Of a DNA stretch of 47,008 bases, positions 30,072 through 33,272 are shown piece by piece (within the stretch, counting starts at the first letter, position 1; the number at the start of each line of letters is the position of its first letter). A model generated the notes under the pieces. It saw only the letters and a program-made list of their open reading frames with translations. It was not told where the DNA came from and did not search any database. The DNA comes from Chlorobiota bacterium (GTDB taxonomy: Bacteria; Bacteroidota; Bacteroidia; Bacteroidales; Marinilabiliaceae), in NCBI GenBank assembly GCA_013153405.1, contig JAADEM010000097.1, positions 1 to 47,008 on the forward strand, read 5' to 3'. A program made the position numbers and the translations under genes.

Positions 30072-31139
30072 ATGAAAAGGCGTGATTTTATAAAAATTGC
30101 AGCAATAACCAGTTTGTATGCCTGTGCCGGCCAGTCGTGCAGCCCTGAAAAGAAAAAGTTGAAAAACTGGATGTGGTTACGAGGAGGACAAAACCTTTCT
30201 GATGCAGAGTTGAGAGAGTTTTATCGGAAACTGAAAGATGACGGTGTTCATGGAGTTCTTCCGGATGGCAGTAACGAATTTTACGAGAGGGTGGGGCATA
30301 TTTGTAAACAGATTGGACTGGAATTTCATGCCTGGCGATGGACAATGATTAGGCCCGGATATATGAAGGTGCATCCTGAGTGGTACGCTGTGAATCGCAA
30401 TGGTGAGTCCGTGGTCAAACATCCTCCGTATGTGAATTATTACAGATGGTTATGTCCGTCGAAGAAAGAGGTTGAGGAACTTCTAATAAATGATTATACC
30501 AGCCTTTGTAATATTGAAGGACTTAACGGAGTGCATCTTGATTATGTGCGTTATTGCGATGTGATACTGCCTGTTGCACTTCAGCCAAAGTACAATCTGG
30601 TGCAGAATCATGAAATGCCTCAGTTCGACTATTGTTATTGTGATACCTGCCGGAGTAAATATAAAGCGGAATATGGTTACGATCCAATGAAGTTAAAAGA
30701 CAGAGCTGAAGATGATGAACAGTGGAGGCAGTGGCGGCTTGATCAGTTGGTTGTGCTTGTAAATAAAATAGCCGAATCTGTTCACAAAACAGGGAAACAG
30801 ATTTCGGCAGCGGTATTCCCAACACCAGAGATTGCCAGAGAACTTGTACGACAGGATTGGGAGAGGTTTAATCTGGATGCATTTATGCCGATGGCATATT
30901 TTAATGATTACAATGGTGATCTGAAATGGCTTGCGGATGTTGTAAAAAGAGATGCTGCCCTGCTTAAGGGGAAAGCCGGTTTTTATCCCGGGCTTAATCT
31001 GGGGCATGTACGTAAATATGGAATTGAGAAAGTAATTAATGTATGTCTGGCCAACGGAGCTCAGGGCGTTACATTCTTTCCTGGAAATGAGTTTTCTGAT
31101 GAGGATTGGTTGGAATTTAAAAAGATAGCTTATAAATAA
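30072..31139 (+). CDS. Tat-exported putative glycosidase (GHL10-like TIM barrel)
   Basis: 355 aa. The N-terminus is a twin-arginine signal (MKRRDFIKIAAITSLYACAG), ending near a cysteine that may be lipidated. The body looks like a TIM barrel of the kind found in GHL10/COG1649-type hydrolases: GVHGVLPDGSNEFYERVGH, FHAWRWTM, WLCPSKKEVEELLINDYTSL, then GLNGVHLDYVRYCD, where the Asp is the likely active-site residue, AVFPTPEIARELVRQDW, FMPMAYFNDY and GVTFFPGNEFS. A cysteine-rich insert (FDYCYCDTCRSKYKAEYGYD) may bind metal. Substrate unknown. The two Tat signals in this window (this and 20217) both belong to glycan-type enzymes. Confidence 0.7.
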   Translation: MKRRDFIKIAAITSLYACAGQSCSPEKKKLKNWMWLRGGQNLSDAELREFYRKLKDDGVHGVLPDGSNEFYERVGHICKQIGLEFHAWRWTMIRPGYMKVHPEWYAVNRNGESVVKHPPYVNYYRWLCPSKKEVEELLINDYTSLCNIEGLNGVHLDYVRYCDVILPVALQPKYNLVQNHEMPQFDYCYCDTCRSKYKAEYGYDPMKLKDRAEDDEQWRQWRLDQLVVLVNKIAESVHKTGKQISAAVFPTPEIARELVRQDWERFNLDAFMPMAYFNDYNGDLKWLADVVKRDAALLKGKAGFYPGLNLGHVRKYGIEKVINVCLANGAQGVTFFPGNEFSDEDWLEFKKIAYK

Positions 31140-31277
31140 TAGTTGTATTTCTGTTTTCATAGATTTAGTTAGATTAATTTTGAAGAGTCGTTGTGTAACA
31201 GCGGCTCTTTTTTATTGATTGAATCTGTAAATGCTAATGAAAAAGATTATTTTAGCTTTTGATAAATTTAATGCCTG

Positions 31278-31892
31278 ATGCCTGGTACAGATACTTATAA
31301 AACGATAAAGGAACCATCTGAAGGAATTTATAAAGAGAAGGGAAGTAAGTTTCTGGCTTTTGCGTATCCTGTTTTTAATGAGGATGAAATAAAAAAGTAT
31401 ATATCTGAATTGAAAAAGGAATATCATGATGCACGTCATCATTGTTATAGCTGGAAACTTGGTATGGATGATAATCATTACCGGATGAATGATGACGGTG
31501 AACCCTCGGGGACAGCAGGAAAACCAATTTATGGGCAGATACTATCATACGGACTTACCAATGTGCTTGTTGTTGTGGTTCGCTATTTTGGCGGAACAAA
31601 ATTGGGAACCAGTGGATTGATACATGCTTACAAAACAGCAACAAAAGATGCGTTTGAAAATGCCGAAGTTGTGGAAAAAACAGTGAACGATATTATAACT
31701 GTTTCATTTGATTATGGTGTTATGAATGATGTGATGAGAATTGTTAAGGATGAAGAGCCTGAGGTTGTTTCCCAGGATTTTAATCTTGATTGCAGAATGG
31801 TTTTGTCTGTACGCCAGAGCCATTCTCCTATGGTGGTGAAAAAGCTTAAAAAGCTGGAATCGGTAAAGGTTGAGGTAAATGACAATGATTAG
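31278..31892 (+). CDS. YigZ/IMPACT family protein
   Basis: 204 aa, the usual family length. The signature block is intact: KGSKFLAFAYPV, HDARHHCYSWKLG, DDGEPSGTAGKPIYGQI and VVVRYFGGTKLGTSGLIHAY. Eukaryotic IMPACT regulates Gcn2; the bacterial role is unclear but may involve ribosomes or nucleotide-like ligands. It is followed within 25 bases by the reductive-dehalogenase-like gene, so the two are probably co-transcribed. Confidence 0.93.
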   Translation: MPGTDTYKTIKEPSEGIYKEKGSKFLAFAYPVFNEDEIKKYISELKKEYHDARHHCYSWKLGMDDNHYRMNDDGEPSGTAGKPIYGQILSYGLTNVLVVVVRYFGGTKLGTSGLIHAYKTATKDAFENAEVVEKTVNDIITVSFDYGVMNDVMRIVKDEEPEVVSQDFNLDCRMVLSVRQSHSPMVVKKLKKLESVKVEVNDND

Positions 31893-31916
31893 CTTAACAG
31901 TATATTCCATGTGGAT

Positions 31917-33272
31917 ATGGTTATAGAAACTATTAATGTTATTGCATTAGGTGTTTTAGTTGCGTTTGCACTTCTTATGCTGGTAGCGTATTTTGTGTTC
32001 AGGAGCGAAAAGGAGAAAAGGGCTGCCGGAATATCTTTTATAGGTTTCGTTTTCTTTGTATTGGCAGTAGTGCCGGTTTATCTGTGGAGTGATGTGGCTG
32101 TTTTTTTTACAATACCCCTGCTTGTAGTTTTGATAGTAATTTCAATGGTGCTTTTTATTCCGGCATCTTTTTTCAGAAAAGAAGCAGAACCGGTTCCTGC
32201 AGGCCGGATAGATGAGCGAAATACAATGTTTTCGAGGAACGAGCTTCAGCCGGGTAAAAAGAGGTTTGATAAATATTACGAAGAATTTTCAGATCACCGG
32301 GCAAGAGATGATGTGTTCCGAAGTAATCCGGGCTTGCTGGATAAAAGATCCCTGTTTTTCAATCCCCTTGCTTTCCCAATGGCAGATGCAGGGTTTGAGA
32401 CTGTTGCTGCTTTTCATAAGCTTGTGAAAGGAGAGCCGAAAGAAACGATTGCCTATGTTGATAAGGAACGGCTTGACAGGTTTGTACGTGAATGGCTGAG
32501 ACGCGAAGGTGTTGTTTCGTCCGGAGTAACAGCTATGAAAGATTATCATTTTTACAGTATTGGTGGCAGGGGTGACCGTTATGGTAAACAGATAGGGAGG
32601 AAGCTTCCCCTGGGTATTGCTTTTACTGTAGAGATGGCAGCTGAAATGGTAGCTGCAGCGCCCCGTTCATCTATTGTTATGGAATCGTCAAGGCAGTATC
32701 TGAATGCCGGTAAAATTGCGGTACAACTTGCCATCTTTTTGCGTAATCTCGGATATGAAGCTCGTGCTCATATTGATGGTAATTATGAGGTTGTATGCCC
32801 TTTGGTGGCAAGGGATGCCGGGTTAGGAGAGATAGGGCGTATGGGATTGCTGATGACTCCAGAGCTTGGTCCCAGGGTAAGGATAGCCGTAGTTACAACA
32901 AACGCGCCTTTGAAACTTGACGACAGGAACTATGATCCGTCGGTTGAGGACTTTTGCAGTAAATGCCTGAAGTGTGCCGATGCCTGTCCTGTATCAGCAA
33001 TCCCTAAAGATGAAAAAAAGGAGATAAAAGGAGTAAAGCGCTGGCAAATAGATCAGGAAAAATGTTTTACCTACTGGAGCTATGCCGGTACCGATTGCGG
33101 ACGCTGTATCAGTGTTTGTCCATACTCACATCCCGATAATTTTTTGCATAACACTATTCGTTTTCTTATCAGGAATTTCCCTAATTTCAGAAAACCTGCA
33201 GTAATGCTCGATGACTTCTTCTATGGACGCAAGCCCAAACCACACAAAGTTCCGGAGTGGATGGATATTTGA
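31917..33272 (+). CDS. Reductive-dehalogenase-like iron-sulfur protein with N-terminal membrane anchor
   Basis: 451 aa. Three hydrophobic helices occupy about 5-85. The soluble part matches the RdhA-type catalytic region: GGRGDRYGKQIGR, then the strongly conserved AGLGEIGRMGLLMTPELGPR, and two 4Fe-4S motifs, CSKCLKCADACP from C347 (C-x2-C-x2-C-x3-CP) and, from C383, C-x10-C-x2-C-x3-CP ending CGRCISVCPYSHP. RdhA enzymes use a cobamide to remove halogens. Here there is no Tat signal; the fused membrane helices replace the usual separate RdhB anchor. It might be a catabolic or non-dehalogenating relative (compare QueG). I started at ATG 31917; a GTG at 31911 is also possible. Confidence 0.78.
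   Translation: MVIETINVIALGVLVAFALLMLVAYFVFRSEKEKRAAGISFIGFVFFVLAVVPVYLWSDVAVFFTIPLLVVLIVISMVLFIPASFFRKEAEPVPAGRIDERNTMFSRNELQPGKKRFDKYYEEFSDHRARDDVFRSNPGLLDKRSLFFNPLAFPMADAGFETVAAFHKLVKGEPKETIAYVDKERLDRFVREWLRREGVVSSGVTAMKDYHFYSIGGRGDRYGKQIGRKLPLGIAFTVEMAAEMVAAAPRSSIVMESSRQYLNAGKIAVQLAIFLRNLGYEARAHIDGNYEVVCPLVARDAGLGEIGRMGLLMTPELGPRVRIAVVTTNAPLKLDDRNYDPSVEDFCSKCLKCADACPVSAIPKDEKKEIKGVKRWQIDQEKCFTYWSYAGTDCGRCISVCPYSHPDNFLHNTIRFLIRNFPNFRKPAVMLDDFFYGRKPKPHKVPEWMDI

Follow-up and report, generated by a model that had tools for sequence, protein, structure and literature searches.

A putative hybrid reductive dehalogenase from Bacteroidota with an RdhB-like membrane anchor and a catalytic domain predicted to face the cytoplasm

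Introduction

Among the systems nearest to the protein described here is the menaquinol:organohalide oxidoreductase of Desulfitobacterium hafniense TCE1. In PceA, H495, R499, D515 and Y520 lie around the menaquinone while Y337 and R396 are catalytic (PMC10624902), and the same account mentions that conservation of some pocket residues extends to organisms lacking quinones. A different architecture was described by Atashgahi 2019 under the name 'hybrid putative reductive dehalogenases' (PMC6797604). These proteins have three N-terminal helices, lack a Tat signal and an rdhB gene, carry an ExE motif in the loop between helices 1 and 2 as well as the motifs FeS1 and FeS2, and have many members in Bacteroidota, with others listed from several further phyla.

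In the portions of the open-access literature accessible to us, including PMC10624902 and PMC9303371, no activity is reported for the hybrid class. A study that cites the class describes Bacteroidota reductive dehalogenase (RDase) genes with an incomplete or missing Tat signal that are transcribed during tetrachloroethene dechlorination, their class membership not being evident from the sections at hand (PMC12090745). Dibromophenol induces an RDase gene of Marinifilaceae, but that gene has a Tat signal and an rdhB (PMC12908670). PMC6737245, as far as available, concerns Asgard archaeal RDases, and the accessible part of PMC7284496 holds nothing bearing on the hybrid class.

Here, we analysed such a gene from a Bacteroidota genome (GenBank assembly GCA_013153405.1) in its window, which is the whole 47,008-nucleotide stretch of contig JAADEM010000097.1. 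We propose, with a probability of about one half, that its product is a single-chain, inward-facing menaquinol:organohalide-type reductase of the hybrid class.

Results

The gene for the membrane-fused, reductive-dehalogenase-like protein occupies 31917..33272 on the forward (+) strand, to which all coordinates of the window refer. Its open reading frame (31911..33272) is intact and begins with an alternative GTG start; together with the in-frame ATG at 31917 this gives a product of 453 or 451 amino acids. Residues are numbered from the ATG. The NCBIfam RDH model (TIGR02486) matched residues 220-435, well past the 4Fe-4S part, with an E-value of 6.7e-43 and 147.7 bits, and Pfam Dehalogenase (PF13486) scored 15.8. 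Since both scores are below threshold (160.35 and 24.3, respectively), the protein would be left unnamed by either model at these cut-offs; the relatives L025 and L026 score similarly with RDH (153.4 and 145.8 bits). In a single-sequence search of the PDB the nearest structures were NpRdhA, DhPceA and SmPceA (E 1.8e-37 for NpRdhA and 2.6e-30 for PceA). A profile of 17 relatives gave 4.6e-59 for NpRdhA, 1.3e-56 for SmPceA, 2.9e-48 for DhPceA and 1.8e-8 for QueG, and profile-profile comparison reached 1.7e-62 over 347 columns with eight classical RdhA versus 1.3e-13 over 99 columns with three QueG. Judged by these scores, membership in the RdhA family is far from chance, and the profile resembles RDases much more closely than QueG.

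An initial annotation of this DNA had recognised an RdhA-like protein with an RdhA-type segment and two 4Fe-4S motifs. The RDH match and the phylogeny bear out the former, and all of the latter are present in the sequence: the RdhA-type AGLGEIGRMGLLMTPELGPR segment at 32817..32876, identified in the sequence and by its match to PDB sequences, the FeS1 motif CxxCxxCxxxCP at residues 347-358 (C347-C350-C353-C357-P, 32955..32990) and the FeS2 motif CxxCxxxCP at residues 394-402 (C394-C397-C401-P, plus C383; 33096..33122).

We considered whether the protein might be a QueG-type epoxyqueuosine reductase or a simple ferredoxin-like protein, since Pfam Fer4_7, Fer4_16 and Fer4 exceeded their cut-offs and the QueG model TIGR00276 gave a partial match (E 3.8e-10). 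However, this match (39.3 bits) stays far under the QueG cut-off of 200, and the same genome encodes its own QueG, which scores 345 bits and falls inside a separate starred QueG branch. A simple ferredoxin, which the initial annotation had named as an outcome that would overturn it, is contradicted by the PDB profile search and by an RDH match extending well beyond the 4Fe-4S region, and we ruled it out. QueG proteins are not known to have membrane helices. This alternative is hardly credible.

Phylogenetic placement agreed. In the first tree (61 rows, 235 columns, with anchor and pocket columns left out) the hybrid protein grouped with other anchored rows, 16 in all, in a starred clade (100/98); a larger starred clade of 23 adds L078 and six anchor-less relatives. 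The separate starred branch mentioned above was made up of five QueG rows, three over the QueG cut-off and two just below. In a second tree the 16-row clade reappeared (100/98), here as part of a starred clade of 25 rows (99/96), 17 of them anchored and 8 anchor-less; L076, L111, L110a and L110b fell outside this larger clade with weak support. In both trees the protein is placed outside QueG, which disposes of the QueG placement that the initial annotation had wanted checked, and outside Tat-type RdhA. The rows L110a, L110b, L111, L107 and L109 were used solely in the second tree and in the residue count. Genes of G052, G067 and G130 that are split, truncated or internally deleted (L016, L018-L021, L023) were left out, as were L024 and L035 (run of N) and L075 (stop); L059 and L069 are absent from the trees, and L064 was grouped with the Tat rows though its ORF shows no Tat start. 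These three genomes hold the gene either split in two or with an in-frame gap inside it, through assembly error or decay (L018/L020 in G052, L016/L021 in G067 and L019/L023 in G130).

At E <= 1e-30, 18 of the 149 genomes of the order carry the gene, the genome of the window included; at the same threshold it was not found in the two listed genomes of the same family. Across the phylum, the RDH model at E <= 1e-25 matched 7 of 395 genomes, and the six rows besides the window's own represent a different, anchor-less branch. Scanning viral contigs revealed no relative, while a scan of genome contigs gave 4 loci. Several further arrangements were seen on the way. A separate anchor-less RDH-like group from six Bacteroidota genomes (L088-L093) forms one starred branch (100/100); its members measure 316 to 413 amino acids as extracted, with unsure starts, and carry F at the position of W387. 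Genome G407 has at least seven RDH matches over the cut-off, two of them (L060, L085) with a Tat start, and holds two tandem anchor-less relatives with K replacing the catalytic Arg (L110, 260-2592). In G131, which belongs to the same order, a hybrid member (L017) occurs alongside a Tat-type RdhA with a GEGEP-carrying RdhB (L022).

Hydropathy alone predicted three transmembrane helices at residues 10-28, 38-56 and 65-83 as numbered from the GTG, corresponding to 31938..31994, 32022..32078 and 32103..32159. The first loop contains an ExE motif (EKE, within RSEKEKRAAG; 32007..32015). Inspection of the N-terminus revealed no RR pair, and hence no twin-arginine signal, so that three fused N-terminal helices without Tat signal, as initially annotated, stand. 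We then counted K and R in 15 of the 18 anchored rows; L076, L014 and L015 were left out because they have fewer than three helices by that prediction. For L076, two helices were predicted at the threshold used for the charge count and three in another prediction, and it was classed as anchored, as was L078; in L014 and L015 just one helix is predicted and the ExE hairpin is missing. The totals were 7 at the N-terminus, 48 in loop 1, 6 in loop 2 and 58 in the C-terminal flank, which amounts to a bias of 106 to 13 for the inward orientation, with the same direction in 15/15 sequences. As a control, nine RdhB proteins gave 6 at the N-terminus, 29 in loop 1, 8 in the ExE loop and 39 in the C-terminal flank. 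Charge thus places the RdhB ExE loop outside, in agreement with the cryo-EM structure of PceAB, where the ExE loop of PceB is on the periplasmic side (PMC10624902), and the rule works on relatives.

Taken together, the inward charge bias and the missing Tat signal make a cytoplasmic catalytic domain likely, in line with the cytoplasm-facing, membrane-tethered protein originally annotated. The ExE loop of the hybrid protein, for its part, is predicted on the opposite side of the membrane from that of RdhB. A periplasmic catalytic domain, as in classical RDases, would match the position of the PceB loop and also the published TMHMM table, in which we counted an exoplasmic C-terminus for 36 of 69 hybrid members (PMC6797604). 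But all 15 sequences point the other way, and a Tat signal by which a folded Fe-S/cobamide domain could be exported is missing; we therefore hold a periplasmic orientation to be very unlikely. The uniform inward charge bias goes beyond the mixed topology predictions in the published material compared here.

The anchor was also compared with RdhB at the profile level. Using hhalign, 15 hybrid N-termini matched nine RdhB with a probability of 89.7, a score of 38.2 and an E-value of 1.9e-6 over 60 columns, although the match joins two short hydrophobic profiles. Thirty local column shuffles (blocks of eight) scored at most 24.2 and the reversed profile 10.3. The RdhB set came from 14 loci of classical rdhA genes, five of which had no match by the small-ORF filter; matches without ExE were not taken as RdhB (extras in L022 and L065, and those in L067, L081, L094 and L095). 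In the alignment, TM1-ExE-TM2 of the hybrid protein pairs with TM2-ExE-TM3 of RdhB. Because the match includes the ExE motif, an RdhB-like hairpin appears to have been fused in, shifted by one helix. TM3 lies outside the RdhB match; it would then be an addition that returns the catalytic domain to the side of the ExE loop. This one-helix shift is not stated in the related literature as far as we compared it. It also qualifies the initial annotation, which had set the protein outside the usual rdhAB context: an RdhB-like element, ExE motif included, is recognisable in the anchor itself.

In the catalytic domain, alignments identified Y261 (32697..32699) as the equivalent of the catalytic Tyr (SmPceA Y246, DhPceA Y337) and R322 (32880..32882) as that of the catalytic Arg (SmPceA R305, DhPceA R396). 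With an offset of 48 between the DhPceA chain and the numbering of the paper, Y337 and R396 fall on Tyr and Arg. Both equivalents occur in 18/18 anchored rows in the residue count of the second tree; over all rows, Y261 is found in 29/29 and R322 in 26/29 (K in L110a and L110b, A in L111). The same position holds F or N instead of Arg in five QueG rows and K in NpRdhA. Some relatives that lack the anchor share these catalytic residues (L036, L037, L080-L083, L107, L109).

A second feature is a clade-conserved H-x-D-x-N segment at residues 285-289 (32769..32783). H285 and D287 are both present in 17/18 anchored rows and 8/8 near anchor-less rows, versus 0/16 classical RdhA rows. Since both anchored and anchor-less members keep the HxD, they seem to have a common active site and a different electron supply. 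The segment preceding AGLGE is two residues longer than in PceA and classical RdhA in most alignments, with an insertion site that differs between them. The active-site Asn of PceA (N272) corresponds to N289 by the second-tree, profile and DhPceA-pair alignments and to D287 by the first residue alignment and the SmPceA pair. The idea that D287 is the catalytic Asp of QueG was dropped, as the alignments disagree and the QueG profile alignment stops short of that site.

The HxD might reflect a different chemistry. Conserved before the active-site Asn region and lacking in classical RdhA, it could mark a cobamide-dependent member of the RdhA superfamily that reduces something other than an organohalide, and the want of a reported activity for the class in the open-access literature accessible to us agrees with this. 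On the other hand, the catalytic Tyr and Arg of PceA are in place, the clade profile lies much closer to RDases than to QueG, and Bacteroidota RDase genes with incomplete or missing Tat signals are transcribed during tetrachloroethene dechlorination, though their class membership is not evident from the accessible text (PMC12090745). We regard a non-halogenated substrate as a real possibility, somewhat short of even odds.

Equivalents of the menaquinone pocket were found in a C-terminal stretch (33147..33224). By alignment, H411, R415 and D432 correspond to H495, R499 and D515 of DhPceA, and Y436 falls near Y520. H411 and R415 occur together in 18/18 anchored versus 0/11 anchor-less rows, L014 and L015 keeping both despite their one predicted helix; within the starred 25-row clade the counts are 17/17 versus 0/8. 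These single-helix rows, and the occurrence of some pocket residues in organisms that lack quinones (PMC10624902), tell against too strict a reading of this pattern. In the starred sister pair of L078 and L083, the anchored member has H and the anchor-less member Q. Three independent tree contrasts of H411/R415 against the anchor all had the same direction, and because there are only three, the association falls short of significance (sign test, p 0.25). Classical RdhA have H in 16/16 rows and R, K, A, Q or E at the second pocket position. NpRdhA, which has a C-terminal reductase part and no membrane anchor, shows G and A at the positions of the pocket H and R. We did not find a tie between pocket residues and anchor stated in the related literature, in so far as it was accessible.

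These residues help to weigh another explanation, in which the same enzyme has the same inward topology but the helices merely tether it, and a soluble ferredoxin or flavodoxin is the donor, as presumably in the anchor-less relatives. The existence of such relatives with the same catalytic residues fits this, as do the single-helix proteins L014 and L015. Yet a mere tether would need neither H411 and R415 nor the ExE hairpin, and the distribution of the former and the RdhB match of the latter speak against it. We consider a soluble donor unlikely.

The host genome encodes menA (273.7 bits, over the cut-off), MetH, methylmalonyl-CoA mutase and one corrinoid protein, and contains two cobalamin riboswitches, one followed by a TonB receptor gene; menaquinone and cobamide should thus be at hand. 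Elsewhere in the same genome (L029, 2-1708, on C35), a cobalamin riboswitch precedes the gene of an anaerobic ribonucleotide reductase (NrdD). A quinone-pathway marker was detected in 15/18 carriers versus 109/130 other genomes of the order, a tally from a later sample of 148 genomes (149 in the first) in which the 18 carriers are taken to be included. Co-occurrence does not discriminate within the order, and we rejected it as proof of the donor. Three carriers (G014, G050, G130) had neither marker over the cut-off, which again would suit a soluble donor. In the first anchor-less group (G151, G152, G361, G403, G386), 0/5 genomes matched either marker at E 1e-5. A Fisher test on the markers was set aside, as it pools phyla and counts G433 and G409, which have matches below the cut-off, as lacking.

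Turning to the surroundings, the gene at 31278..31892 (+) ends 18 bases before the GTG. Its product scored 155.8 bits against a YigZ cut-off of 167.95 and well above the cut-off of Pfam UPF0029, which agrees with the YigZ/IMPACT protein named by the initial annotation. A consensus scan found a terminator-like stem upstream of yigZ (31182-31210); given this and the 18-base spacing, the two genes may be co-transcribed. Whether this neighbour is conserved had been left for checking, and it is not: none of the 18 other loci, which span 3.3 to 17 kb, had a yigZ homologue by blastp at E < 1e-10 and half coverage; L006 offered only 3.3 kb, and L024, which contains a run of N, gave no ORF. We therefore rejected yigZ as a functional partner; its presence says nothing on function. 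Besides the protein itself, no gene family was common to more than two of the 18 loci. Shared families are limited to pairs of loci, and neighbours were rejected as a guide to the substrate. Adjacent genes elsewhere encode a CitMHS transporter (L045), a DUF4294 protein (L025) and a DNA-polymerase-Y-like protein (L047). In two species of one genus (L045:6058-9086, L044:4115-7188) we observed a short-anchor form with one predicted helix and no ExE hairpin, whose gene overlaps that of a CitMHS-type transporter by 4 bases. The transporter is named by Pfam in L045 and belongs to the same BLAST family in L044, and the order is common to both.

Pfam and NCBIfam named no cobamide or halogen gene among the six neighbouring ORFs. 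Across the whole window, ExExxA was present in 0/9 small hydrophobic ORFs, screened with the filter that found RdhB elsewhere. The initial statement that no rdhB, cobamide or halogen-related gene is adjacent therefore holds, and both the lack of a halogen-linked gene among the scanned neighbours and the lack of a neighbour family common across loci are compatible with a non-halogenated substrate. Upstream of yigZ, the protein encoded at 30072-31139 has weak glycosyl-hydrolase-like Pfam matches and has an RRDFIK start as well as a cysteine of the type found in lipoprotein signals.

Structure models were of low confidence: the full-length model (5 rows) had a mean pLDDT of 41.4, and the model of the soluble part a pLDDT of 45.9 and a pTM of 0.43. 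A PDB fold search with this weak soluble-part model returned RdhA chains at ranks 1-36, at an rmsd >10 A and a TM-score near 0.4 and partly via sequence, and is supporting at most.

Discussion

From the family, motifs, catalytic and pocket-equivalent residues, charge bias and anchor-RdhB match present in the sequence, we infer a quinol donor, a bound cobamide, an organohalide substrate and the energetics of the reaction. In the proposed enzyme, a single chain would combine an RdhA-type catalytic domain with a quinone-site hairpin resembling that of RdhB, plus one further helix. The chain would insert N-out/C-in; with the catalytic domain facing the cytoplasm, no Tat export would be needed. The site of menaquinol oxidation would be a pocket bounded by the TM1-ExE-TM2 hairpin on one side and the C-terminal helices (H411, R415, D432) on the other. 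Electrons would pass via the two 4Fe-4S clusters to the cobamide, and Y261 and R322 would help to cleave an organohalide, or a substrate like it, reductively. As the cytoplasmic side would host both half-reactions, no membrane potential would arise from this step, and the enzyme would serve as an electron sink or in detoxification, not in respiration that conserves energy.

More tentatively, and at less than even odds, the protein might be an inverted module: the quinone-to-cobamide unit of PceAB rebuilt as one chain by a register shift of RdhB and an added helix, and placed as a whole on the cytoplasmic face. Such a module would be quinol-fed and non-energy-conserving, with a clade-specific HxD close to the active site and possibly a non-halogenated substrate. 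If the enzyme is indeed inward-facing and quinol-fed, such genes in metagenomes would be wrongly counted as evidence of organohalide respiration and would rather encode electron sinks or detoxification enzymes. In addition, our comparisons make the orientation and the electron donor of the class, left open in the related literature accessible to us, directly testable.

How does the protein compare with known systems? QueG shares a glycine-rich segment and the 4Fe-4S region (99 profile columns) but belongs to a separate clade. The catabolic, cytoplasmic NpRdhA (4ras), the best PDB sequence match, has the RdhA core without membrane passage and differs by its missing anchor, by G/A at the pocket H/R positions and by K at that of R322. 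With respiratory RdhA (TIGR02486/PF13486) the hybrid protein has the catalytic Tyr and Arg in common, whereas the Tat signal RRxFxK and the partner rdhB are lacking and the scores stay below the curated cut-offs. PceA2B2 (8q4h; PMC10624902) shares, as far as its description is accessible, the catalytic Tyr/Arg and two 4Fe-4S motifs, and likewise the pocket H, R and D at equivalent positions and the ExE hairpin. Unlike PceA2B2, the hybrid protein is one chain instead of two, has no Tat signal and is predicted to face inward; its TM1-TM2 aligns with the TM2-TM3 hairpin of RdhB, and its HxD is not found in PceA.

By its sequence, the protein is a member of the hybrid class described in 2019, with an architecture that is not new and an activity that is putative. 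Every feature of that class is found here, including the length of about 450 amino acids, and there is no defining difference. The class was delimited by its clustering apart from the known RDase groups, as is also the case here, identity with the cluster of Atashgahi 2019 resting on architecture and taxon. What goes beyond that description is the uniform inward charge bias, the one-helix shift relative to RdhB and the anchor-linked pocket residues.
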